64,000 nt of DNA, from positions 1-64,000 of IMG/VR virus record IMGVR_UViG_3300045738_001212; one strand, 5' to 3'. A program made the translations under genes and the position numbers. This stretch comes from a virus. Of the stretch, positions 1,273 to 37,051 are shown in pieces; the first letter of the stretch is position 1; the number at the start of each line of letters is the position of its first letter. The notes under the pieces were generated by a model. That model saw only the letters and a program-made list of their open reading frames with translations. It did not search any database and was not told the DNA's origin.

Positions 1273-2203
1273 AAATAGATGTTCCGCAATACTCTCGCTC
1301 TGAAATCCCCATGCTTGCAGAGCTTTCATCGTACATGACGGGCTCAGGGCGACGCAAATTTTTTCCTGAAGACGTTAACGCATCTTCGTGTATTACTTTC
1401 AGTTTATCTTCTGAAAGCCACTCTTTGAAGTGTTCGTAAATTGGGCCGGGGTCTGTTCCGAGTTCTACTGCTCCTAAAAAATAATTTCTTATTTTGTTGT
1501 TCAACGTTAGCGGATATTTTACTCCGTCCGGTCTTCCAAACCTATGCACCCATCTTAAGAAAGGGAGACATAAAGTTTTGTGTCCAGCTTTTCTATACTT
1601 CTCATGGATGTATCCTTCTTCTCCTCCAAACCCCCTGAATAAAGGATTGAAACCTAACCAGTTTTCTTTCTTAGCAGAAAAAACCCCTAGTCCCTGCATG
1701 GGAATTTCGAACGGTTCTGCGTCTGGATTTTTTGCTCTATCATCAGTTGCCCAAGTTCCGTACATCTGAGCCCTCCAAACGGGGTCAAAATGAGAAGAGA
1801 TGGTTTTTAAATCATCGTACAAAAGTGGCCCCTGCAATAAGTCTTTTGAGTCTGGATTTTGTTCGTAGTAGTCTATTAGTTTTTTTATGGACCCCGGAAC
1901 AAATAAAATATGGCAATCCATAGAAACAACATATGGAGCAGATGCATGTTCAAAAATTTTATTCCTGACAACTGTGCTTTGGTATTCTGTAAATGGTATG
2001 TATTTTGTCTTAGCCCAGTGCCCCGCAAGATTCTTGGTAATTTTACCATGTGGACCATCAGGGTTATTATCAACAACTAAAATCTCTATATCATCGATAA
2101 CCTCGGGGTGGTACATCCTCAACGCTTGAATAGAAAAGTATACCCCGTGATAATCATCGAAGGTGGCCATACCGATTGTTAGCTTAGGTCTTCTTGGGCT
2201 CAT
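1271..2203 (-). CDS. glycosyltransferase, GT-A fold, polypeptide GalNAc-transferase-like
   Basis: 310 residues. The N-terminus (KLTIGMATFDDYHGVYFSI...EILVVDNN) is the nucleotide-sugar half of a GT-A enzyme. The metal site reads MDCH (Asp96-x-His98), the DxH form typical of polypeptide N-acetylgalactosaminyltransferases rather than the DxD of ordinary GT2. The later PMQGLGVF (168-175), GFGGEEGYIHEKYR (191-204) and VHRF (His220) blocks line up with the PxxAGGLF, WGGENxExSFR and GHVFR blocks of GT27. The two genes upstream in the operon encode a Thr-rich mucin-like protein and a collagen-like fibre, so modification of virion protein Thr/Ser residues is a natural guess. Donor sugar and acceptor are not known. 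Confidence 0.75.
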   Translation of the reverse strand: MSPRRPKLTIGMATFDDYHGVYFSIQALRMYHPEVIDDIEILVVDNNPDGPHGKITKNLAGHWAKTKYIPFTEYQSTVVRNKIFEHASAPYVVSMDCHILFVPGSIKKLIDYYEQNPDSKDLLQGPLLYDDLKTISSHFDPVWRAQMYGTWATDDRAKNPDAEPFEIPMQGLGVFSAKKENWLGFNPLFRGFGGEEGYIHEKYRKAGHKTLCLPFLRWVHRFGRPDGVKYPLTLNNKIRNYFLGAVELGTDPGPIYEHFKEWLSEDKLKVIHEDALTSSGKNLRRPEPVMYDESSASMGISEREYCGTSI

Positions 2204-28476: not shown

Positions 28477-28505
28477 TTGACGAGTTCCCGTTTCTGTGTT
28501 ATATT
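28477..28505 (+). promoter_or_regulatory. leaderless promoter, plus strand
   Basis: TTGACG, 17 bases, TATATT (28500-28505), then GTACCC and ATG 28512. The transcript start is predicted at the start codon. Confidence 0.7.
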
Positions 28506-28511
28506 GTACCC

Positions 28512-28718
28512 ATGAGCGAGACCTACAATGACCCTTCTGATTCCACCCGTGTGCGCGAGCGTTGTGAAGACGCGCCGTGCTGCGGCTGCTGCGGCCCCGA
28601 TACCGTGGGCGGCTACGACCCCCAACCCTACGGCGGCTTTGAAGGCCAGTGGGCTGGTGACGGCTCCGGTTTGGATGACCTCGCGGACTTTAACGCGATG
28701 GAGGGCATGGATATGTGA
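28512..28718 (+). CDS. small Cys-rich acidic protein, 68 aa
   Basis: Starts MSETYNDP at the first ATG after its promoter. The codons ATGAGCGAGACCTAC match the starts of three other leaderless genes or leaders. CCGCCG sits near residue 23, the rest is Gly/Asp/Tyr-rich, and it ends MEGMDM. Base composition is more GC-rich than the flanking genes. Possibly metal-binding; no family known. Confidence 0.6.
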   Translation: MSETYNDPSDSTRVRERCEDAPCCGCCGPDTVGGYDPQPYGGFEGQWAGDGSGLDDLADFNAMEGMDM

Positions 28719-28730
28719 ATAACTTTACCC

Positions 28731-28759
28731 TTGACAAGGGGACGTTCGTGTGTTAATAT
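28731..28759 (+). promoter_or_regulatory. leaderless promoter, plus strand
   Basis: TTGACA, 17 bases, TAATAT, then TATACCA and ATG 28767. It begins 12 bases after the previous stop codon, so each of these two small genes has its own promoter. Confidence 0.7.
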
Positions 28760-28766
28760 TATACCA

Positions 28767-28943
28767 ATGATGAACGAGACGACATTTGAAGTTAGCTGGG
28801 CCTACGGCGAAACCACCTTTATCAACGCCCGTGACGAGGCGCAAGCCGAGCGTATGGCCGCGCAGATGGGCAGAGCCCACGGGTTGGGCAAGGTCAAGTG
28901 GGTGCGTCACGCATCGCTGGACAAGGCAAACAGCGAGTTTTAA
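28767..28943 (+). CDS. small protein, 58 aa
   Basis: Starts ATGATGAACGAG immediately after its promoter (7 bases beyond the -10). The sequence (TFEVSWAYGETTFINARDEAQAERMAAQMG) has a beta-hairpin then helix pattern, like the small xYxVxV...A...A proteins found elsewhere in this window. It is followed by a hairpin (28957-28982). Confidence 0.6.
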   Translation: MMNETTFEVSWAYGETTFINARDEAQAERMAAQMGRAHGLGKVKWVRHASLDKANSEF

Positions 28944-28956
28944 CGACTTACCCCTT

Positions 28957-29015
28957 TAACTCGCCGCGAAGCGGTGAGTTAAGGAAGCCCCCGCACTTTT
29001 TTCAACTCAGTGCAA
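28957..29015 (+). terminator. hairpin plus CACTGAGTT element after the plus-strand pair
   Basis: TTAACTCgCCGC-GAA-GCGGtGAGTTAA forms a near-perfect hairpin. It is followed by AAGCCCCCGCACTTTTTT and CAACTCAGTGCAA. This is one of eight copies of the CACTGAGTT-type element between 28.9 and 40.1 kb. Confidence 0.5.
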
Positions 29016-29060
29016 CAAAAACATCTCAGGACAGATGCGCTTATTTCGTTCCGATTAAAA

Positions 29061-29108
29061 TTTGCTATTTTCTTAATTTAAATTTGCTGAATTTGCTATT
29101 TTCTTAAT
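29061..29108. repeat. direct repeat TTTGCTATTTTCTTAATTT, two copies
   Basis: Copies start near 29061 and 29090, directly 3' of the SleB gene. Related AATTTGCTATTTT strings recur in the 42.9-43.1 kb array, so this may be a dispersed short repeat. Confidence 0.4.
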
Positions 29109-29557
29109 TTGAAAAACTTATGTTTACCAACGATTTTTATAGGTGTGCTTGTGCGCGTCCAATAGTTGTGAGTGTTAACGTGACAGTAGTGGTCGGCATT
29201 GCCAACGTAGCTATGCTGTAAGTTGTTTATGTTTGTTGCAAGCATCTTTGCATAGGCCGCGTGTTGGTGCGTCTTTAATAGCGTGGGTAGTTTCTTTCTA
29301 TTAGGGTCACGCTCATCCCAACAAGAGAATTGCCATATCCTCTTACCCTTTTGCAAGCAGACTTGCTTTGCTGTTTTGTTTCTATTGATTACACGTTGAG
29401 CGATAACACAGGCCACGCCATACATACCGGCTTCGCCCTCGCCACGCGCTTCGCCTAAGATCGTCATGGCTACCACGTCGCGTTCGGTATACTCTTCGGC
29501 ACACAGCCCCATCAGTATAATAAAAAGCATGACAAAAAATATAAATCTAACGAACAT
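29096..29557 (-). CDS. SleB-type cell-wall hydrolase (candidate endolysin)
   Basis: 153 residues. An N-terminal hydrophobic signal or anchor (FIFFVMLFIILMGLCAEE) is followed by a Hydrolase_2/SleB domain: RDVVAMTILGEARGEGEAGMYGVACVIAQRV (catalytic Glu in GEARGE) and HYCHVNTHNYW near the C-terminus. SleB-type enzymes cleave peptidoglycan. The signal suggests export by Sec (a SAR- or secreted-type lysin). Start ATG 29557 follows AAAAGGATTATTT. It is separate from the holin/spanin-type cluster at 57-58.5 kb. Confidence 0.8.
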   Translation of the reverse strand: MFVRFIFFVMLFIILMGLCAEEYTERDVVAMTILGEARGEGEAGMYGVACVIAQRVINRNKTAKQVCLQKGKRIWQFSCWDERDPNRKKLPTLLKTHQHAAYAKMLATNINNLQHSYVGNADHYCHVNTHNYWTRTSTPIKIVGKHKFFKLRK

Positions 29558-29635
29558 AAATAATCCTTTTGTTGAATGTTAAAAGTAGGGTGACGCAAGG
29601 AGAGACCACTAACCTTGCGCCACCCTGTTCTATGA

Positions 29636-30019
29636 CTACCACCAGCACGAGTAAACTATCTTCCACCCGCCAGCTAGTGCCTTCCTAGCCTTCTGGATGA
29701 ATTCGATGTCGTCATCCTTGTAGCCGTATTCACCTTCATAATCCTCATAGGAATCATTGCCGAAGAAGAAGCCTCCTGTCTCTGGTAGTTCCTTGTCTAG
29801 GATAGCTTGCTCTAGGCTGTCCAAATCCTCCTCGTCAATAGTTACATCAACAAGATTGAATTCTCCATCGCCACCCTTGCTGCGCCAAAGCTCTTCCATC
29901 CACCCTTGCAAGCGATTATGCTTGCGCCAGTAGTGAAGCTCCGTCTTGGTGATGGTGTCGGTGCGTGTGTCTGAATCGTAGTCAGACTTAACTTGATATG
30001 CTGTTTGGTCGAGTCCCAT
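29636..30019 (-). CDS. conserved phage protein with WRKHNRLQGWMEEL and GFFFG motifs
   Basis: 127 residues. MGLDQTAY, then YWRKHNRLQGWMEELW, DLDSLEQAI, LPETGGFFFG and a C-terminal WW. This combination recurs in marine phages. I recall it sometimes labelled phosphoglycerate kinase, but no kinase motif is visible here. Shine-Dalgarno AGGAGA precedes the ATG. It is second in the operon after the 93-residue gene. Confidence 0.6.
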   Translation of the reverse strand: MGLDQTAYQVKSDYDSDTRTDTITKTELHYWRKHNRLQGWMEELWRSKGGDGEFNLVDVTIDEEDLDSLEQAILDKELPETGGFFFGNDSYEDYEGEYGYKDDDIEFIQKARKALAGGWKIVYSCWW

Positions 30020-30028
30020 AGTAATCTC

Positions 30029-30310
30029 CTAGTTAGTGGTTGCGGTTGGTAGTGGTGGTAGTGCCAGCGGTTTAGGTAGCGGTGGCAACGGTGGGAGGCT
30101 GGCCATGTAAGCCAATCTCTCTACTTCAGCGAATGAAATACTGAATTGCTTCTTTAAGATAGGCAGCGCAGCCTTAATCTTGTAGAGGCGATAGGCTTCA
30201 GCCTTTGCCTCCTCGTGGGTTGCGCCTTCCTTCTTTCGGGCTTTGATGTGGTTGGTTACTTCAGCAGCCTTGACTGCGTTGCGAGCTTGGTAGGTTTTGT
30301 ATGTCTTCAT
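30029..30310 (-). CDS. hypothetical protein, 93 aa, leaderless
   Basis: The start is ATG 30310 (MKTYKTYQ), not an upstream one, because TTGACA-N17-CATACT ends 7 bases before it. The protein is Ala/Lys-rich and helical, ending in a Pro/Leu repeat (PPLPPLPKPLALPPLP). Function unknown. Confidence 0.6.
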   Translation of the reverse strand: MKTYKTYQARNAVKAAEVTNHIKARKKEGATHEEAKAEAYRLYKIKAALPILKKQFSISFAEVERLAYMASLPPLPPLPKPLALPPLPTATTN

Positions 30311-30317
30311 TGGTAAG

Positions 30318-30346
30318 AGTATGCCTGAATTTGGTGTTGGTGTCAA
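30318..30346 (-). promoter_or_regulatory. leaderless promoter
   Basis: TTGACA, 17 bases, CATACT, TTACCA-type 7-base gap, ATG 30310. Confidence 0.65.
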
Positions 30347-30354
30347 GTTTATTC

Positions 30355-30597
30355 CTATATGGTTACCGCTGAGAGGCCGTTGGCTAGGATGGGCCGCTTG
30401 TGCAACGGCGCGAACGAATTGATGCGATGCCAGTTGAATCGGCGGATGACGTTTTCATAACCGTCACGGCATACCGTAGCGACAAAGCCCCCGTTGCCCG
30501 AAAAGAAGAATTCGTCGGGCGTGAGGATGAGATAGTTTTCAGTCTTGCCGTTGGCCTTGGTGTAGTTGAGTTCGAATGCTTTCTTGGTGTATGTCAT
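30355..30597 (-). CDS. hypothetical protein, 80 aa, leaderless
   Basis: The start is fixed at ATG 30597 (MTYTKKAFELNYTKANGK) by TTGACA-N17-TATATT ending 6 bases upstream. Beta-rich with a Gly/Phe stretch (FFFSGNGGFVATV). No family recognised. Confidence 0.6.
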   Translation of the reverse strand: MTYTKKAFELNYTKANGKTENYLILTPDEFFFSGNGGFVATVCRDGYENVIRRFNWHRINSFAPLHKRPILANGLSAVTI

Positions 30598-30603
30598 GGT
30601 TAT

Positions 30604-30632
30604 AATATACCATGAAAGAGCCTCGTTGTCAA
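30604..30632 (-). promoter_or_regulatory. leaderless promoter
   Basis: TTGACA, 17 bases, TATATT, ATAACC, ATG 30597. The -35 lies just after the stop codon of the upstream TM micropeptide. Confidence 0.7.
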
Positions 30633-30640
30633 GCAGTTTC

Positions 30641-30739
30641 TCACAGTGTTTCAATGTAAATCCCTGTTGCCAGTATCACCACGAATGACACGATGCCAAT
30701 AATGAGAACAAAATAAATATCTCTGAAATCGTCTTTCAT
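30641..30739 (-). CDS. TM micropeptide, 32 aa
   Basis: ATG 30739 overlaps the stop of the upstream gene (ATGA) and has the Shine-Dalgarno GGAGGG within that gene's last codons. The peptide is one hydrophobic helix (FVLIIGIVSFVVILATGIY) with acidic ends. It ends just before the next promoter. Small inner-membrane peptides of this kind may tune holins or host membrane complexes; role unknown. Confidence 0.6.
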   Translation of the reverse strand: MKDDFRDIYFVLIIGIVSFVVILATGIYIETL

Positions 30740-30954
30740 AATCCCTCCTTGATATAATTATGCGTTCCCATCTTTTCAATAAAATGAGTTTCAAGCATAT
30801 CAAATTGATGCATCGCCGTGCCTCTGTTGTTGGCCCATTCTAACGCCCTAAAGAGTGAACAAGCTTTTTGATAAGTCTCACACACTTGAGCCGCTGCTAT
30901 GTTTTGATGCACTGACGTTGGCACTACGTTTTGTTCTTTTCCGTTTTTGGTCAT
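30736..30954 (-). CDS. hypothetical protein, 72 aa
   Basis: MTKNGKEQNVVPTSVHQNIAAAQ...; helical, soluble. The start overlaps the stop of the 37-residue gene (ATGA) and the stop overlaps the TM micropeptide start, so the three are coupled from the promoter at 31071-31099. Confidence 0.55.
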   Translation of the reverse strand: MTKNGKEQNVVPTSVHQNIAAAQVCETYQKACSLFRALEWANNRGTAMHQFDMLETHFIEKMGTHNYIKEGL

Positions 30955-31064
30955 AAAGGTTTCTTGTGTTTAGGTTTCCGAGTGTAAGAGCCTTTGCCCT
31001 TCTTAACGCGATGCTCACGGGACGCGCTGCCCATGTAGCCCTCTTTGTTTTTCCGCGCTTTCAT
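30951..31064 (-). CDS. basic micropeptide, 37 aa, leaderless
   Basis: ATG 31064 lies 6 bases after TATATT of a perfect TTGACA-N17 promoter. The peptide (MKARKNKEGYMGSASREHRV...HKKPL) is strongly basic. It is coupled to the next gene by ATGA. Possibly nucleic-acid binding. Confidence 0.6.
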   Translation of the reverse strand: MKARKNKEGYMGSASREHRVKKGKGSYTRKPKHKKPL

Positions 31065-31070
31065 AGTGAT

Positions 31071-31099
31071 AATATACCACTGAAACGTCTCACTGTCAA
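31071..31099 (-). promoter_or_regulatory. leaderless promoter, part of the 107-bp repeat
   Basis: TTGACA, 17 bases, TATATT, ATCACT, ATG 31064. The -35 and most of the spacer lie in a 107-bp sequence repeated at 33151-33257. Confidence 0.7.
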
Positions 31100-31189
31100 G
31101 GATAAACCACCCAACCCGCCGCGTAGCGGTGGGTTGTTTTAGCTTGCACTGAGATAAAAAATCTGCGGGCGTTTTTCTGACTCACTGTC
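31083..31189. repeat. 107-bp direct repeat, copy 1 (other at 33151-33257)
   Basis: Base-for-base identical by eye. It spans the -35/spacer of a promoter, a hairpin AACCCGCCGC-GTA-GCGGTGGGTT (31113-31135) and a CACTGAGATAAAAAAT...GCGGGCGTTTTT element. It therefore joins the end of one cassette to the promoter of the next. Confidence 0.85.
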
Positions 31190-31194
31190 AAGCC

Positions 31195-31617
31195 TTAAAC
31201 TACAGCCCAGCACCGATGCCCCACGAAACAATACGCTGATTTGGCGATGGGACGTTTCTCTTTTACCGTCACAAAAGTCTTATGCTTGTAAGGGTCGTAA
31301 GTCACCTCCACCCACTTGCCATCCACAGCCATCGTCTTCGCTTGCTTTAGCATCTCTTGAGGGGAAATCATATTTACAACAGGGCGATGCCCGGTATACG
31401 TAATCCACTTACCGCGCACGTAGGCGTGTACGTTCTTACGCATCTCATCCCGGACGCGATCATTGCCCTTGGCACCAACGACGAATTCAACATCATGCAA
31501 CAGAATACCTCTCACATGTTTGGCCACTAGGCCATCGTGTCGGGTACGCACCGAGTAAACCCGATCCGTCTTGTCTCCCCTGTGCAGGTTCCTGTAAACG
31601 TCTACCTTGCTTTTCAT
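31195..31617 (-). CDS. hypothetical protein, 140 aa
   Basis: Basic protein (MKSKVDVYRNLHRGDKTDRVYSVRTRHDG...). The start overlaps the stop of the upstream gene (TAATG) with GGAGAA as Shine-Dalgarno. Beta-rich, no motif recognised. Confidence 0.55.
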   Translation of the reverse strand: MKSKVDVYRNLHRGDKTDRVYSVRTRHDGLVAKHVRGILLHDVEFVVGAKGNDRVRDEMRKNVHAYVRGKWITYTGHRPVVNMISPQEMLKQAKTMAVDGKWVEVTYDPYKHKTFVTVKEKRPIAKSAYCFVGHRCWAVV

Positions 31618-31997
31618 TAGTCTACGTTCTCCATGTCGTCGTGCATCATATTCTCAAGCTTGCCAATCTTGTCATCGCTTAACCCCGCTCGCCAATCATC
31701 ATCATCATATTCATTCTCCTCCTTCTCCCAGCGGTATCCCTCTGGCGGCATGATGTGCCACAAATCATTCGCCCTTGCCTCGCCTATGATGTAAGGCTTA
31801 ATCTCTTCCATTGAAACGTCGCCCCATTCATTCTCAACACCCATAACGTAGCCGAAGGCTATGCCGTTTTCGTCTGGCTCTCCCAGATAATACTCCCACA
31901 TATTCCGAAGGATGATGTGCTGGTGAACGGTGAACGCGCTGATGGGTAAGGTGCGGTTGTTTATGGGGACTATGTTTCTAGGTTTTGTAGGTTTCAT
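31617..31997 (-). CDS. hypothetical protein, 126 aa, leaderless MKPT start
   Basis: Starts ATGAAACCTACAAAACC, sharing its first 11 bases with four other leaderless genes. The C-terminal half is very acidic (KEENEYDDDDW...DDMENVD). TTGACA-N17-TACATT ends 7 bases before the ATG. Confidence 0.6.
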   Translation of the reverse strand: MKPTKPRNIVPINNRTLPISAFTVHQHIILRNMWEYYLGEPDENGIAFGYVMGVENEWGDVSMEEIKPYIIGEARANDLWHIMPPEGYRWEKEENEYDDDDWRAGLSDDKIGKLENMMHDDMENVD

Positions 31998-32004
31998 TAG
32001 GTAT

Positions 32005-32033
32005 AATGTAACACTTTAGAGGCCGCTTGTCAA
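32005..32033 (-). promoter_or_regulatory. leaderless promoter (CTCTAAAGTGT spacer family)
   Basis: TTGACA, spacer AGCGGCCTCTAAAGTGT, TACATT, ATACCTA, ATG 31997. The spacer is nearly identical to those at 32331, 32585 and 32832, so these four promoters share ancestry beyond the core boxes. Confidence 0.75.
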
Positions 32034-32323
32034 GCGGTTTTTTGAGTTTCGACGCCGAACATCTTCTCACCGCGACCCACCCACGAAGGGCCGTCAACGA
32101 GCCACGACGCTGTGCCAGTATCCGACAAGCAAGCTACCGTCGGGCTTTCAATTTCCCCTTCCGTTAAGCCACAGGCGGCCTTGAAGCGGTCAACGTCAAA
32201 ACGCGGGTTGTCCTTGGCAAACTGGGTTGCGGCTAGTGTAGCCAGCACAGCGGCGGGTGTGCCGTTGTTGGCTGCGTTGATGAGGGCGGCGACGAATTCG
32301 AAGTGTTCTTTTGTTGTTTTCAT
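32030..32323 (-). CDS. hypothetical protein, 97 aa, leaderless
   Basis: MKTTKEHFEFVAALINAANNG...; Ala-rich helical N-terminus resembling small phage proteins of unknown role, ending in a Trp/Gly-containing segment (SWLVDGPSWVGRGEK). Its stop codon lies within the -35 region of the next promoter. Confidence 0.55.
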   Translation of the reverse strand: MKTTKEHFEFVAALINAANNGTPAAVLATLAATQFAKDNPRFDVDRFKAACGLTEGEIESPTVACLSDTGTASWLVDGPSWVGRGEKMFGVETQKTA

Positions 32324-32330
32324 TAGGTAT

Positions 32331-32359
32331 AGTCTAACGCTTTAGAGGCCGCTTGTCAA
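32331..32359 (-). promoter_or_regulatory. leaderless promoter (CTCTAAAGTGT spacer family)
   Basis: TTGACA, 17 bases, TAGACT, ATACCTA, ATG 32323. Confidence 0.7.
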
Positions 32360-32364
32360 GCTTT

Positions 32365-32577
32365 TTATCTGCATCGTTCAATGTCCTTTTCTCTTTTTAG
32401 CTCCGCCTCTTCTTCGTGGGTGAAAAGTCTGCCGAGGGTGATTGACTCAATCTCAAGGCCGATCTTGCTACCGAAATACATATCCCGCACGTTAGCGAAT
32501 GAGGTTCCGGTTGCGGCCCAGCGTGTGCCATTGGTTGTGGTTACGATAAAATCGGTTGTTTCTTTTATGTCTTTCAT
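32365..32577 (-). CDS. hypothetical protein, 70 aa, leaderless
   Basis: MKDIKETTDFIVTTTNGTRWAATGTSFANV...; an alpha/beta pattern with a charged C-terminal helix (EEEAELKREKDIERCR). Function unknown. Confidence 0.55.
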   Translation of the reverse strand: MKDIKETTDFIVTTTNGTRWAATGTSFANVRDMYFGSKIGLEIESITLGRLFTHEEEAELKREKDIERCR

Positions 32578-32584
32578 TAGGTAT

Positions 32585-32613
32585 AGTCTAACACTTTAGA
32601 GACCGATTGTCAA
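32585..32613 (-). promoter_or_regulatory. leaderless promoter (CTCTAAAGTGT spacer family)
   Basis: TTGACA, 17 bases, TAGACT, ATACCTA, ATG 32577. Confidence 0.7.
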
Positions 32614-32626
32614 GGATAAAGTTGTC

Positions 32627-32652
32627 CCCCCGCGCAAGCGGGGGGGGGTTAG
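32627..32652 (-). terminator. GC-rich hairpin between two cassettes
   Basis: Minus-strand CCCCCCCCGC-TTGC-GCGGGGGG lies 2 bases after the stop of the 56-residue gene and just upstream of the next promoter. No U-tract is present, so it may act as a stabilising or intrinsic-like terminator. Confidence 0.45.
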
Positions 32653-32653
32653 C

Positions 32654-32824
32654 CTAGACCCCCCTGTGCGCTTCCACACAGGCCACCTCTTTAGGGAAGC
32701 CCTTGCGGAGTAGTTCAAGATTGTTGCTGTCAGCCTTACGAATAAGGCGCAACAGTTTAGCGGTGAACCAACTACCCTCTCCACAGAGGATGTTGCCGAT
32801 GTTGTTTTTGTCGTAGTTACTCAT
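32654..32824 (-). CDS. small protein, 56 aa, leaderless
   Basis: ATG 32824 (MSNYDKNNIGNILCGEGSW) is 7 bases after TACAGT of a TTGACA-N17 promoter. A longer frame across this DNA in another phase is a shadow. Helical centre (AKLLRLIRKADSNNLELLRK). Function unknown. Confidence 0.6.
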   Translation of the reverse strand: MSNYDKNNIGNILCGEGSWFTAKLLRLIRKADSNNLELLRKGFPKEVACVEAHRGV

Positions 32825-32831
32825 TGGGTAT

Positions 32832-32860
32832 ACTGTAACACTTTAGAGGCCGCCTGTCAA
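32832..32860 (-). promoter_or_regulatory. leaderless promoter (CTCTAAAGTGT spacer family)
   Basis: TTGACA, 17 bases, TACAGT, ATACCCA, ATG 32824. It overlaps the 3' end of the upstream gene. Confidence 0.7.
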
Positions 32861-33132
32861 GCACCAAGTGCGTCCCACGGGTCTACGGGTGCGTTGGGTT
32901 CCTCGTTCCGTTTCATCCAAGGGGTGCGAAGTAACTCCTCCCATTCGCTTGAGCCAACAGCGTCATGATACGCAGCGCGTACTAGCGCGTGGTGGCCGCT
33001 CATTCTCCAATCCCAATCGTTCATATCCTTTGACTTGATAGTGCTGGTCTTGCCCTCTGGTGAGACATAGGTGAACACATGGTTGTTGGTCTTGCGGTTA
33101 GAGTAGAGTAGAAACTTTTCTTTACCTTCCAT
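32857..33132 (-). CDS. hypothetical protein, 91 aa, leaderless
   Basis: MEGKEKFLLYSNRKTNNHVFTYVSPEGK...; small beta domain, then a Trp-rich helix. ATG 33132 is 6 bases after TACATT. Function unknown. Confidence 0.6.
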   Translation of the reverse strand: MEGKEKFLLYSNRKTNNHVFTYVSPEGKTSTIKSKDMNDWDWRMSGHHALVRAAYHDAVGSSEWEELLRTPWMKRNEEPNAPVDPWDALGA

Positions 33133-33138
33133 ACGTAT

Positions 33139-33167
33139 AATGTACCACGCAAACGTCTCACTGTCAA
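33139..33167 (-). promoter_or_regulatory. leaderless promoter, part of the 107-bp repeat
   Basis: TTGACA, 17 bases, TACATT, ATACGT, ATG 33132. Confidence 0.7.
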
Positions 33168-33257
33168 GGATAAACCACCCAACCCGCCGCGTAGCGGTGG
33201 GTTGTTTTAGCTTGCACTGAGATAAAAAATCTGCGGGCGTTTTTCTGACTCACTGTC
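33151..33257. repeat. 107-bp direct repeat, copy 2
   Basis: Identical to 31083-31189. It contains the hairpin AACCCGCCGC-GTA-GCGGTGGGTT and the CACTGAGAT element between the 53-residue gene and the next promoter. Confidence 0.85.
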
Positions 33258-33269
33258 GCATGGCCACGC

Positions 33270-33431
33270 TTACCACGCATGGGGCCACACGCCGACTATT
33301 TCGCTATTTGGGTGATCGCCTAAAGCGTGAGTCTTGGCTACCGTAAGGGTCATGCCCCAGTAAGAGGCTTCGTAATAGCTGCCCGATGTGAAATTCCGGG
33401 TTCTGATTGTCCAGTTAGATGTTTCGCTCAT
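33270..33431 (-). CDS. small Trp/Tyr-rich protein, 53 aa, leaderless MSET start
   Basis: Starts ATGAGCGAAACATC six bases after TACATT. Rich in aromatics (SGSYYEASYWGMT, GVWPHAW). Not seen in any family I know. The shared ATGAGCGAAAC start and consensus promoter support it being real. Confidence 0.6.
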   Translation of the reverse strand: MSETSNWTIRTRNFTSGSYYEASYWGMTLTVAKTHALGDHPNSEIVGVWPHAW

Positions 33432-33437
33432 GGGTAT

Positions 33438-33466
33438 AATGTAACACGAAAAACGCTACCTGTCAA
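33438..33466 (-). promoter_or_regulatory. leaderless promoter
   Basis: TTGACA, 17 bases, TACATT, ATACCC, ATG 33431. The gap from here to 33656 holds a CACTGAG-type element (33474-33515) and no supported gene. Confidence 0.7.
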
Positions 33467-33656
33467 GGAAAAACAGTGAGGCTCAAAAAATGCTGCCGCT
33501 TTTTCAACTCACAATCAATTAGGTCAATTAATCACGTTTATATAGGGTAATTGTTTCGCAAGGCACCCCAGTAAAACAGATATTTAGATGATAAGAATTT
33601 CCTATTTACCCCTGATTTCTCCGATGAGAAATACCCCCTTTTTAAGAAATTATATG

Positions 33657-33685
33657 TTGACAGATAGGCTATTTGGTGGTATAGT
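33657..33685 (+). promoter_or_regulatory. promoter of the tRNA-like RNA
   Basis: TTGACA, 17 bases, TATAGT. Seven bases later, at 33692, begins the 5' strand of the tRNA-like acceptor stem, so the primary transcript would start at the mature 5' end. Confidence 0.7.
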
Positions 33686-33691
33686 ATTCTT

Positions 33692-33818
33692 GTTGGTGGC
33701 AATGGTAGCCCTCGCTGAATAAGTGAGTGCCCTCGCAGGAAAGCCCCTAGTGGAAGCGCGACGAAGCTAGACGGTGATACGATACTGGAGGGGTGAGGTT
33801 CAATCCCTCGCACCAATA
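33692..33818 (+). ncRNA. tRNA-like structured RNA
   Basis: The ends form a 7-bp acceptor-type stem, GTTGGTG (33692-33698) with CACCAAT (33811-33817), with discriminator A33818 and no encoded CCA. The 3' part is a canonical T-arm: stem TGAGG/CCTCG around loop TTCAATC, with G53-C61 and TTCAA kept. The 5' part has GGCAATGGTAGCC (D-arm-like) and a hairpin CTCGC-TGAATAA-GTGAG whose 7-base loop lacks the usual U33. About 65 bases with CTAG...CTAG and CCCCT/AGGGG pairings replace the variable region. CCCTCGC occurs three times. It is too long for a tRNA and too short for a tmRNA, so a diverged or intron-bearing tRNA or a tRNA-mimic leader of the downstream gene is possible. Confidence 0.5.
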
Positions 33819-33825
33819 ACAATTT

Positions 33826-34023
33826 ATGATGAACGACAAATGTAAATGTGGAGGTTGTGGTGCGCCCGTAGCGTGGGAGTACGACGCCCCTTATCAGGAG
33901 TACCCCGGCGCGAAGGTGTGGGGCGGGGAATGGTTCGTCGAGTGCGAGAAATGCGGGTGGAGCGATGCCACCAAACAAGACTTGAGCCATTACTCCATAC
34001 GCGAGAACACGCGGGGGTGGTGA
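33826..34023 (+). CDS. small zinc-ribbon protein, Lar-like
   Basis: 65 residues. CKCGGCG near the N-terminus and CEKCGW in the middle give a two-knuckle zinc site around an aromatic core (WEYDAPYQEYP...WGGEWFVECEKCGW), like Lar-family restriction-alleviation proteins. It begins ATGATGAACGAC 7 bases after the tRNA-like RNA, on the same predicted transcript. Its stop codon lies in the loop of a strong terminator. Anti-restriction is plausible but unproven. Confidence 0.6.
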   Translation: MMNDKCKCGGCGAPVAWEYDAPYQEYPGAKVWGGEWFVECEKCGWSDATKQDLSHYSIRENTRGW

Positions 34024-34064
34024 GTTAAGAAAGCCCCCGCATTTTTTTCAACTCAGTGCAAGCC
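34010..34064 (+). terminator. rho-independent terminator plus CACTGAGTT element
   Basis: GCGGGGG (including the last codons), then TGGTGAGTTAAGAAAG as loop, GCCCCCGC and TTTTTTT, followed by CAACTCAGTGCAA. A clear plus-strand terminator for the zinc-ribbon gene. Confidence 0.7.
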
Positions 34065-34079
34065 TTTTCTTTTGTCGAT

Positions 34080-34138
34080 CACGAGTGATCGTCTAAATAG
34101 TTTGTCAATCATATTTCCACTATTTTGATCGTCTAAAT
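34080..34138. promoter_or_regulatory. operator-like inverted and direct repeats
   Basis: CGATCAC-GA-GTGATCG is a 7-bp inverted repeat (34079-34094), and TGATCGTCTAAAT occurs twice (about 34087 and 34126). On the minus strand a TTGACA lies between them. This looks like a repressor-binding region or decayed promoter; no gene starts here. Confidence 0.35.
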
Positions 34139-34149
34139 TTGCTAAACGA

Positions 34150-34179
34150 AAAGCCCCCCCGCTTGCGCGGGAGGGCTTT
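34150..34179 (-). terminator. terminator downstream of DUF932 gene
   Basis: Stem AAAGCCCTCCCGC-GCAA-GCGGGGGGGCTTTT on the minus strand, 20 bases after the stop codon. It is symmetric enough to act on both strands. Confidence 0.7.
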
Positions 34180-34199
34180 GGTTCTTCACCCCTTGGCTT

Positions 34200-35093
34200 T
34201 TAGTTCAGAGCCAGCTTGACCACTTCAGAGGGAACGGCCTTGACCAGCTTGTCAAGCTTGGCGGATTGCTCCGCAGCACCCCGCAGCTTCCGCAGCACCT
34301 TGGTGCTAACGGTGTTGGCGTACTCGAAACGCTCCCTGCTCACGTCATGGGTGAGGTGTTGGGTGGCTGCGTTGTAGAGTGTCCACAGATTGCGGGCTTC
34401 GTCTTCCTCGCGGGCGGGATTCTCCCACACCTTGAGGATGCCGTCCTTGACCACGTTAGACAGCACCTTCGAGCGGTTCAACTGGTCGAGGATGTTGCGC
34501 CCCTGCTCTTGCGTGATGTCACGCTCGCCCAAGATGCTGAAGCCTTGCGCGGCTTCGTTGAAGCTTCCGGTGGCTCTGTCGAGAGCGTCCCCGATAAAGC
34601 TAATCTCTACCGCTGCGGTATGACGGCGATTCATGCCGAACTCATTCTCCAAGGTGGTCATGCCGTTGAGGCAAACCAGCCGCACCATGCCAAGCGCGAA
34701 GGATACGCGCAGGGAACGGTCAAAGGAGTTTTGCAGGGTGAGGCGCATTCCTAATTCCATGCCCTTCACTCTGTCCTCGCGCCGTGTGGCGATGGCCGTC
34801 TCATTCGCGAAGTCGTACTGCGCGAACATCTTCTCGCCGCGACCAGTCACGACAATGTGGCGGCTTGTGGGAACCATCCCGCGAGACTCAAAAGCCTCTT
34901 CGGCATTGGCAATCAAATCACCGTTTTGCACAAAGCCGTACTGCTCCGTGCCCCAACCTAATTCCTCGCCCGTATCGGTACGGACGTGCGCGTATACGCG
35001 GGAGCGGTTGCTGTTGGGAAGGGTAAGGGGGACACGCTCCACGGTGTAATCGAAAGCGGTGGGGTCGGAGGTTTGAATAGTGTTTCTGGCCAT
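34200..35093 (-). CDS. DUF932 family protein
   Basis: 297 residues. VYAHVRTDTGEELGWGTEQYGFVQNGDLIANAEEAF near the start and VCLNGMTTLENEFGMNRRH in the middle are typical of the DUF932 phage/plasmid proteins, whose biochemical role is not established. It has a leadered mRNA (about 40 bases) from a TTGACA-N17-TACACT promoter and its own terminator, so it is a stand-alone unit. Confidence 0.8.
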   Translation of the reverse strand: MARNTIQTSDPTAFDYTVERVPLTLPNSNRSRVYAHVRTDTGEELGWGTEQYGFVQNGDLIANAEEAFESRGMVPTSRHIVVTGRGEKMFAQYDFANETAIATRREDRVKGMELGMRLTLQNSFDRSLRVSFALGMVRLVCLNGMTTLENEFGMNRRHTAAVEISFIGDALDRATGSFNEAAQGFSILGERDITQEQGRNILDQLNRSKVLSNVVKDGILKVWENPAREEDEARNLWTLYNAATQHLTHDVSRERFEYANTVSTKVLRKLRGAAEQSAKLDKLVKAVPSEVVKLALN

Positions 35094-35142
35094 GATTTGT
35101 AGGTCTTTCTTGGTTAAGGGTTATCTCTCACTCACTACAAAG

Positions 35143-35171
35143 AGTGTATCACCAATCCACTATCCTGTCAA
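35143..35171 (-). promoter_or_regulatory. promoter of the DUF932 gene
   Basis: TTGACA, 17 bases, TACACT, with the start codon about 50 bases downstream: one of the few leadered promoters in this zone. Confidence 0.65.
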
Positions 35172-35198
35172 ACCTTTTTTTCTGTCATTGGATACAAA

Positions 35199-35266
35199 CC
35201 CGCCGCGCAGCGGTGGGTTTGGGCTTGCACTGAGTTAAAAAATGTGCGGGCGTTTTTACGACTCAT
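35199..35266. terminator. hairpin and CACTGAGTT terminator-like element
   Basis: AAACCCGCCGC-GCA-GCGGTGGGTTT is followed by GCTTGCAC-loop-GTGCGGGC-GTTTTT, an 8-bp stem with two G-U pairs and a T-run, and then ACTCA. Confidence 0.5.
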
Positions 35267-35315
35267 TCCCTCCGTTAACCCATCCCTCCGGGCTGGGTTT
35301 ATATTTACACGCTAT

Positions 35316-35600
35316 TTAACTCTCATTCTTTTGCTTATTGCTAAACGGCGAAATCGACTCGGCTCCGCGCAAGTGATGCCGGATACCTAGTTCCACCTTA
35401 TGTTCAGCAGTATAGTCCCAATCGTCTTGGTCAAGGCTATACTCTGATTGGTATGCTGCCTCCATGTTGAAATTGAAATCACATAGAGTCGTGTCGTCAG
35501 TAAGGTTATGCTTCTGCACATACTCACTCAATGCCTCTGCGATAATCTTTATACGCAAGGGGTCGCCTTCAAGTATCATCTCATGCTCTTGTATCTTCAT
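35316..35600 (-). CDS. hypothetical acidic protein, 94 aa
   Basis: MKIQEHEMILEGDPLRIKIIAEALSEYVQKHN...; the first half resembles a small alpha/beta fold. Shine-Dalgarno GGAGG-ATAA lies before ATG 35600, and the start overlaps the preceding EDK stop. Last of a coupled run. Function unknown. Confidence 0.55.
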   Translation of the reverse strand: MKIQEHEMILEGDPLRIKIIAEALSEYVQKHNLTDDTTLCDFNFNMEAAYQSEYSLDQDDWDYTAEHKVELGIRHHLRGAESISPFSNKQKNES

Positions 35601-35797
35601 TTATCCTCCAATCTCTCGTGTTCTAAAACATCATACTTATTAGCGTCGTCGAGGGTATAACCGTATTCCAGTTGACAGTCGTCTCCATAGTCTCCCTCCC
35701 CACTCATTGCCGTCTTGATAGCGTCGGCCTCATCCTCTGCCTCTACCACGATGTAGCAGTAGTGAACCTCTGGAACCTTAACTGTGAATGTTTTCAT
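35597..35797 (-). CDS. small DpnD/PcfM-like protein, 66 aa
   Basis: MKTFTVKVPEVHYCYIVVEAEDEADAIKTAMSGEG: the strand-strand-helix pattern with VxVEAxxxxxAIxxA is like DpnD/PcfM-type small proteins and recurs at 37110, 40203 and 43994. It ends LEDK because the Shine-Dalgarno of the next gene (GAGGATAA) is its last codons. Confidence 0.5.
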   Translation of the reverse strand: MKTFTVKVPEVHYCYIVVEAEDEADAIKTAMSGEGDYGDDCQLEYGYTLDDANKYDVLEHERLEDK

Positions 35798-35994
35798 TTA
35801 TCCTCCAATCTCTTAAACTTGTCTACTATGATATCACAAACATCTTCCGTAATGGATTGCTTCTCTTCGTCTGTGAACGTGAATGGTGGGGTGTAGCCCT
35901 CCATGTATGTAATCACATCTTCCTGTAGCTGCTCCTTCACCTCTTTAATGACAAGGGATTGCGTGTGCTGAAATGGTTTGCGTAATGTTCTCAT
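35794..35994 (-). CDS. hypothetical protein, 66 aa
   Basis: MRTLRKPFQHTQSLVIKEVKEQLQED...; helical and charged, ending RLEDK like its downstream neighbour. The shared EDK end reflects the GGAGGATAAATG stop-start element. Function unknown. Confidence 0.5.
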   Translation of the reverse strand: MRTLRKPFQHTQSLVIKEVKEQLQEDVITYMEGYTPPFTFTDEEKQSITEDVCDIIVDKFKRLEDK

Positions 35995-35996
35995 GC

Positions 35997-36191
35997 TTAA
36001 TCCTCCACTCCGTAAATTTCTTCGTAGTGTTCAATAATCTCATGGTCGTCTATGTTATCCATGCCAACGCAACCTTCCCAAAGGACTTGTTTCAAATCCT
36101 CGTCTGAAAAGCCCTCCCATTCAGATTCAAAAAGACGCTCGCGCATCGCTTGAATTTCTTTATCTGTATATTCTTTTACTGTGTCAGTCAT
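35997..36191 (-). CDS. hypothetical protein, 64 aa
   Basis: MTDTVKEYTDKEIQAMRERLFESEWEGFSDEDLKQVLWEG...; acidic and helical, similar in style to the 65-residue gene at 56098. Shine-Dalgarno GGAGGATTAA lies within the end of the upstream gene. Confidence 0.5.
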   Translation of the reverse strand: MTDTVKEYTDKEIQAMRERLFESEWEGFSDEDLKQVLWEGCVGMDNIDDHEIIEHYEEIYGVED

Positions 36192-36194
36192 AAT

Positions 36195-36365
36195 TTAATC
36201 CTCCAGTAGATGGTCTTTGGCTGCTTCAATTACCTCTTGGTAATACTCGTTGTCCATTGGCTTAAAGCCTTCGAGACAATCTGAAATGGCGCATAGGCCA
36301 TCGACTATTCTGCTTCTGTCCACCATTCTCCCATTGTGGCTAATTGGGCCTTCATCTTGTTTCAT
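36195..36365 (-). CDS. small protein, 56 aa
   Basis: Starts at ATG 36365 overlapping the upstream stop (ATGA). MKQDEGPISHNGRMVDRSRIVDG...; helical, ending LLED, where GAGGATTAA forms the last two codons and stop and also the Shine-Dalgarno of the next gene. No homologue is recognised. Confidence 0.55.
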   Translation of the reverse strand: MKQDEGPISHNGRMVDRSRIVDGLCAISDCLEGFKPMDNEYYQEVIEAAKDHLLED

Positions 36366-36577
36366 GCTGTGATGTACTCTCCTTCCTCATTGAATACGAG
36401 TTCGAGATGTTTCAACTCCCAAGCGTTAGGTGCGTCCTTGAACCATTGGGTGTCCATGAACTTAATCCATGCGCGAGCGTTAGCGTGGGTGTAGGAAATG
36501 CCATCTGCAAACATCACATAGCTCTCATCCCATGTGTTGTAGAAGGTGGCCGTGTAGGCTTTCATTGTAGGTTTCAT
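36362..36577 (-). CDS. hypothetical protein, 71 aa, leaderless MKPT start
   Basis: ATGAAACCTACAATG at 36577, 7 bases after TATATT. The remainder (MKAYTATFYNTWDESYVMFADG) could be an independent protein start to which the MKPT leader was added. First gene of the coupled group 36577-35316. Confidence 0.6.
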   Translation of the reverse strand: MKPTMKAYTATFYNTWDESYVMFADGISYTHANARAWIKFMDTQWFKDAPNAWELKHLELVFNEEGEYITA

Positions 36578-36584
36578 TACAAGT

Positions 36585-36613
36585 AATATACCACACCGGA
36601 GCGTGGTTGTCAA
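36585..36613 (-). promoter_or_regulatory. leaderless promoter
   Basis: TTGACA, 17 bases, TATATT, ACTTGTA, ATG 36577. Confidence 0.7.
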
Positions 36614-36616
36614 GGA

Positions 36617-37051
36617 CTATTCGCTTAACGAGATTTGGTGGTCGCTCTCGGGAATGTTTACCTTTGAGATGTTTTCCTCCCACCTTTGATTCTCAAACAT
36701 GTTGGCGACGGCTTTTGCTACATCTTCTTTTGAAACGTCAGAGAAATCCCTTTTAGGTGTGCTGCCTAATACCTCACCCCAAGGGACATTGATTCTCCAC
36801 CCGACTGCTAAACACTCATGCCATACACCCTTCACGCAAACGTAATCACCCACCATCATTGAGCGAACTTCGAGCTTCTTAAAGAGGGTACACTCCCGAC
36901 CACTCCCGTTGTTCCAATCCTCCCACACCGCGTCAAGGATGTCTGGGTCTGTGTACTCACGCCCCTTGCTGTCCTCTACTGGGTAGTCCAACCAGAACTT
37001 CTTACATTGCTTCTCGGTCATGTCCCGATATTGAATTTTAACTCTTATCAT
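36617..37051 (-). CDS. hypothetical prot., 144 aa, behind a leader peptide
   Basis: MIRVKIQYRDMTEKQCKKFWLDYP...; beta-rich with two Cys. Its ATG at 37051 lies inside the 15-codon MSET leader peptide, whose sequence supplies the Shine-Dalgarno (CACGGAG). Translation is probably coupled to the leader. Function unknown. Confidence 0.55.
   Translation of the reverse strand: MIRVKIQYRDMTEKQCKKFWLDYPVEDSKGREYTDPDILDAVWEDWNNGSGRECTLFKKLEVRSMMVGDYVCVKGVWHECLAVGWRINVPWGEVLGSTPKRDFSDVSKEDVAKAVANMFENQRWEENISKVNIPESDHQISLSE

Follow-up and report, generated by a model that had tools for sequence, protein, structure and literature searches.

YrlA-type bacterial Y RNA is a non-coding transfer RNA (tRNA) mimic of bacteria and phages. 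The tRNA-like end of MALAT1 (mascRNA; RF01684) is an animal RNA of ca. 60 nucleotides (nt) that forms a tRNA-like fold on a longer RNA and has no decoding role, and transfer-messenger RNA (tmRNA; RF00023; ca. 400 nt) has a tRNA-like domain. manA RNA (RF01745) is a structured RNA of marine phages, and its placement ahead of a gene such as purL is of a type described by Weinberg et al. 2010 (PMC2864571). Here we analyzed the first 64 kilobases (kb), hereafter the window, of a 158-kb virus record (IMGVR_UViG_3300045738_001212; G000). This record is probably from a marine phage because it has collagen-like structural genes and terminase matches of at most ca. 30% identity. The window contains a tRNA-like RNA, which we call the T-module and which is a previously uncatalogued RNA family. 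A first-pass annotation of the window had described its 7-base-pair (bp) stem, T-arm, discriminator A, anticodon-like loop without U33, promoter with +1 at the start of the stem, and following open reading frame (ORF), and all of these are present as described. The features of the locus are as follows (positions in the window).

33657–33685 (+), sigma-70-type promoter TTGACA-17-TATAGT (TTGACA, 33657–33662; TATAGT, 33680–33685), 11/12 match
33692–33818 (+), whole T-module, 127 bases, predicted transcript start at 33692, 129 bits with model R1 and 115.7 bits with model R2
33692–33698 (+), 5′ strand of the acceptor-like stem, GTTGGTG, pairing with CACCAAT; 94.5% of cells paired, three pairs changed on both sides
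33704–33705 (+), GG in the place of the D-loop, 6–7 nt 3′ of the acceptor without a D-stem; same offset in 13/13 aligned members
33711–33727 (+), variable hairpin CTCGC-TGAATAA-GTGAG in the place of the anticodon arm; not an anticodon
33730–33792 (+), long conserved arm P2–P3 (CCCTC/GAGGG, CAG/CTG, GCC/GGT, CTAGT/GCTAG) with an invariant internal loop GAAA / GAYACGATA
33794–33810 (+), T-arm TGAGG-TTCAATC-CCTCG, retained in all members obtained with a T-loop-blind pattern
33811–33817 (+), 3′ strand of the acceptor-like stem, CACCAAT, with covariation across aligned members
33818 (+), discriminator-like A, an A in 13/13 aligned members, with no CCA after it
33819–33825 (+), linker ACAATTT ahead of the ORF; in relatives, RNA modules are set apart by linkers like it
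33826–34023 (+), cysteine-rich ORF of 65 amino acids (aa) with its ATG at 33826, on the same transcript as the T-module, without a family match

Relatives of the T-module were found in 14 other virus contigs, and each of the 15 records has a single copy, including those of 158, 158, and 178 kb. Contigs L010 and L011, both with a T-module, were reached through the neighboring DUF932 gene, and the core shared by their elements was then used as an IMG/VR pattern, which fetched 15 contigs, 14 of them true members. L016, fetched by the first family pattern, scored 16 bits in the model and is not a member. It has a minimal tRNA-like unit of its own outside the T-module family (ca. 2749–2814 [+]; acceptor AGCGGTG/CACCGCT, hairpin GATACG-GAA-CGTATC, T-arm TTGGG-TTCAATT-CCCAA). 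The earliest IMG/VR pattern was too strict, and a looser core pattern without the T-loop returned chance matches alone beyond the family. A third pattern, in which neither the T-loop nor GAYACGATA was specified, recovered 12 of the contigs already fetched and none that was new; therefore, the T-loop is always kept, and the T-arm cannot be explained as a product of the first pattern. Model R2, built on 12 sequences that excluded the window and its closest relative, L018, gave 104.5 bits for L018, and the next-best place in the genome after the T-module scored 12.1 bits. None of six pattern matches in bacterial genomes was confirmed by the model, searches of P-SSM2 and S-CREM1 with model R1 yielded no member, and BLAST of the element and its arrays against cultured phages gave nothing meaningful. 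No description of the T-module was found in the part of the literature covered.

The secondary structure of the T-module is supported by covariation in an alignment of 13 members. Two-sided changes were observed in 46 cells compared to 15.5 in shuffles, and the covariation score was 0.407 compared to 0.155. The acceptor, P2, P3, and T stems were 86–100% paired with many compensatory changes, which also occurred in the variable hairpin. The acceptor takes the forms GTTGGTG/CACCAAT, GTTGGTG/CACCAGC, AGGGTG/CACCCT, and GTCGGTG/CACCGAT; P2 takes CCCTC/GAGGG, CCTGAC/GTCGGG, and CCCGT/ACGGG; and P3 takes CTAGT/GCTAG, CCAGT/ACTGG, and CACGC/GCGTG. RNAalifold, run unprompted on 12 sequences (window and L018 excluded), recovered the acceptor, P2, P3, and T-arm. 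The first-pass annotation had made its proposal of a tRNA mimic transcribed from its acceptor stem depend on covariation in the acceptor and T stems among related phages; both stems covary, as do P2 and P3, and this proposal is supported.

Single-sequence evidence for the T-module is weak. Shuffled 64-kb windows contain on average 0.3 sites with its geometry of acceptor plus T-arm, which by itself is therefore without significance, and the stability of the fold exceeds that of shuffles only slightly (z-score −1.9). The comparison of sequences is decisive for the T-module being real. In the 158-kb genome, the T-loop consensus GGTTCRANYCC occurs at eight sites, namely six tRNAs, one tmRNA, and the T-module.

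The T-module shares with tRNA (RF00005) the stack of acceptor and T-arm and the discriminator-like A, and its 5-bp T-arm with a TTCRANY loop lies beside a 7-bp acceptor stem. On the other hand, it lacks the D-stem, the anticodon, and an encoded CCA and has an extra conserved arm. ARAGORN and Rfam made no call on the element, the tRNA model RF00005, run on its own genome, gave no hit there up to E 10, and permissive thresholds in Rfam gave no match identifying the T-module, which is not in Rfam. With the threshold halved, ARAGORN gave solely contradictory calls on it; neither a covariance model nor ARAGORN recovered a cloverleaf. In place of a 7-nt anticodon loop with U33, the window has the loop TGAATAA, in a hairpin that 66 nt separate from the T-arm. 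The variable hairpin is present in all members, with several kinds of fully paired stem (picked by eye) that are wholly different between groups and loops of 4 (GCAA) to 70 nt; therefore, it does not decode. Among the candidates of the first-pass annotation was a tRNA that has diverged or contains an intron. A D-loop-like part, a T-arm, and an acceptor do occur in the order of a tRNA, yet none of 2415 constructs with deletions of 30–75 nt gave a tRNA in ARAGORN, and the family is under selection with a variable hairpin where the anticodon would be. A diverged, intron-containing, or pseudo tRNA is thus contradicted by the comparative data and is extremely improbable.

The T-module also resembles the tRNA-like domain of tmRNA, which has the same 7-bp acceptor, T-arm with a TTCRANY loop, A after the acceptor, GG soon after the acceptor without a D-stem, and large helical domain replacing the anticodon arm. 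In contrast to tmRNA, the T-module has no encoded CCA and no G3-U70, tag reading frame, or pseudoknots and is 120–200 nt long. Pair 3-70 of its members is U-A, U-G, G-C, or C-G (one A/C mismatch) and never G3-U70. The tmRNA covariance model gave no match in the window and T-arm-level scores alone in L015. Each of the three largest records (G000, G005, and G012) has a separate, complete tmRNA, that of G000 being at ca. 78560–79020 (−) of G000:C1 (L009 1490–1948; RF00023, 123.9 bits). Its tag reading frame is unusually long (ca. 30 codons) and ends in ATLAA, similar tmRNAs occur in G005 and G012, and ARAGORN missed the tmRNA in L009. Some other phages also carry tmRNA (PMC9004378). The tmRNA-like GG spacing, the missing D-stem, and the co-resident tmRNAs would suit a decoy or competitor of tmRNA, with a tRNA-like top that occupies SmpB or EF-Tu of the host, or the ribosome, and so tunes trans-translation, which the phage tmRNA also supplies. 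However, the missing G3-U70 and encoded CCA, the lack of any SmpB gene found in the three phages, and a P2–P3 arm unlike anything in tmRNA make this role improbable.

Other mimics are more distant. The T-module would resemble YrlA-type Y RNA as a non-coding mimic; it has no Rfam match, and Ro/Rsr (TROVE), the partner of YrlA-type RNA, is absent from the phage genome, the only genome examined for it. Like mascRNA, it has a tRNA-like fold, whereas mascRNA lacks the P2–P3 arm; L015 showed a faint Rfam similarity to RF01684 through the T-arm, far below the cut-off.

Promoters of this phage group have an ATG at a fixed distance past the −10 box, 6 nt in 54 cases and 7 nt in 18, not all of them independent because the loci are related, and the messenger RNAs (mRNAs) from such promoters are leaderless. 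The acceptor G1 of the T-module at 33692 likewise follows TATAGT by 6 nt, and in the window, L018, and L014 it occupies the offset of the leaderless ATG. Since the group promoters set leaderless ATGs at an equal offset, the predicted transcript +1 at the first base of the acceptor is well supported. Many small early genes, mostly on the minus strand, lie at 28477–37000 of the window, each with TTGACA-17-TAnnnT and an ATG 6–7 nt past the −10 box, which gives systematic leaderless transcripts. Just 5′ of the T-module promoter, at 33590–33655 (+), there is a conserved element around ATTTCTCCGATGAGAAATACCCCCTTTTTAAGAAA with inverted repeats, and elements of this type recur near arrays in L012, L013, L021, L023, and L025. 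In L073 5901–9300 (−) (G000 ca. 75.9–79.3 kb), a repeated AGAGGATTACGACAT-like motif precedes successive genes and is apparently a repeated start-region element.

What follows the T-module differs between phages. In the window it is the 65-aa ORF; in L012, L020, L024, and L026 it is manA RNA or another module followed by manA RNA. A C-module follows in L013, L017, L018, L023, and L025, and an N-module in L015 and L019. The first-pass annotation had also proposed a structured leader of a downstream zinc-ribbon gene, which it called Lar-like, a label without support from Pfam or PHROGs. A cis-acting leader (riboswitch-like or T-box-like) for the 65-aa zinc-ribbon-like gene or any following gene would agree with the ORF starting 7 nt past the T-module on its transcript in the window and with the short ORF after a second RNA module in L018. 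However, the content downstream shows no constant gene class, the arrays of L017, L023, and L025 have no ORF between their end and the promoter that comes next, and no terminator or Shine-Dalgarno site is visible in the T-module. The 65-aa gene has its own leaderless promoter in L025 and occurs without a T-module in L002. Because of this variable downstream content and the independence of the 65-aa gene elsewhere, the T-module is not the leader of one gene, and a leader role in general is doubtful at best.

In other phages, the T-module is best read as a unit of boxA-led RNA arrays. A boxA-like GTTCTTTGARA site, boxA being a signal of ribosomal RNA (rRNA) operon leaders, lies 5′ of the T-module in L012, L017, L021, L023, L024, and L025, the T-module being further downstream in the array. 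The N-, R-, K-, and S-modules also neighbor it. A K-module is nested in the variable hairpin of the T-module in L014, L019, L023, and L025 and is free-standing in L021; the R-module adjoins the T-module or manA RNA. The C-module is a new structured RNA that forms a three-way junction; its closing stem covaries, and CAACCGGA and GAAGCCGTGG or AAAGCCGTGG are conserved. The modules were located as follows.

L011 8706–8791 (−) and L010 7097–7182 (−), C-module, also in L013, L017, L023, and L025; absent from G000
L015 ca. 1348–1460 (+), N-module, unassigned structured-looking RNA with conserved GGAGCCGAAAGGTGGGGAAACGGG, also in L019 and L021
L012 1491 and L015 1138, R-module, GGTGAAGYA...AAACGYCCG..GAGGWARCGGCC with a variable closing stem, also in L021, L024, L026, and L020

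manA RNA is a direct array neighbor of the T-module in several records, with RF01745 matches near it above the cut-off in L012, L020, L022, and L024 and slightly below in L026. It has an unrelated structure and is a separate module, and the T-module fails the RF01745 model. There is one copy of manA RNA per record, located at L094 1416–1630 and in G000 at 76576–76766 (−) of G000:C1; the latter, the single match in G000, is 43 kb from the T-module behind a boxA-like site. In P-SSM2, manA RNA precedes purL. In the cultured cyanophage S-CREM1, it lies between tRNA-Leu and tRNA-Asn with gaps of 1 and 0 nt, and this speaks against a role in cis-regulation alone.

Such tight spacing in S-CREM1, the structured RNAs beside the T-module, and the discriminator-place A and short linkers resembling ACAATTT that almost every member has would suit a T-module that is processing punctuation. 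It would then have no effector role, and its tRNA-like top would only mark cuts by host RNase P, RNase Z, or RNase E in array transcripts that free adjacent RNAs or mRNAs, as with the tRNA-like end of MALAT1. Nevertheless, punctuation should recur, whereas the T-module has one copy per genome; P2–P3, its best conserved part, would be needless; and in the window, L018, and L014 the RNA begins at +1 with nothing upstream to free. We consider punctuation unlikely.

Our preferred reading, at somewhat better than even confidence, is that the T-module acts in trans as a stand-alone structured phage RNA, its ends forming a tRNA mimic of the tmRNA type and its conserved arm being the effector part. 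The transcript in the window would start at G1 and would therefore need no processing of its 5′ end. Host tRNA enzymes may recognize the tRNA-like top and remove what lies 3′ of the A; such trimming would stabilize the T-module RNA and release the following transcript as an mRNA with almost no leader or, in arrays, the next RNA module. The P2–P3 arm may then bind the ribosome or a protein of the host or phage. These steps of start, processing, and binding, and with them the biochemical function, are inferred. We speculate that palindromic P3 loops (GCGC and ATGCAT) could form a kissing dimer.

Several observations weigh against the stand-alone reading. Conservation peaks in P2–P3 and not in the tRNA-like part; therefore, the tRNA likeness may serve folding or processing alone. 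In L013, a later addition to the members, the 5′ half is diverged and the GG is missing. The tRNAs and tmRNA of the phage encode CCA, whereas no T-module member does. In the window and L018, an ORF is on the transcript of the T-module, and a cis role is therefore possible there.

As a broader and more tentative possibility, which we hold at well under even confidence, the T-module, manA RNA, and the C-, N-, R-, and K-modules may be interchangeable RNAs of operon-like arrays that are led by rRNA-operon-type boxA antitermination and reordered or nested between phages. The T-module would then be a new tRNA mimic docking on the translation or tRNA-processing machinery, and manA RNA, currently classed as a candidate riboswitch, would be a trans-acting member of the kit. 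The neighbors of the T-module put the riboswitch label of manA RNA in question, as the S-CREM1 gap leaves no room for a leader role. tRNA mimics are few, and each is informative on processing, translation, or virus–host conflict; the T-module adds a defined family whose secondary structure has the support of covariation and whose start is precisely predicted, together with a conserved putative effector arm and a tmRNA in the same phage for comparison.
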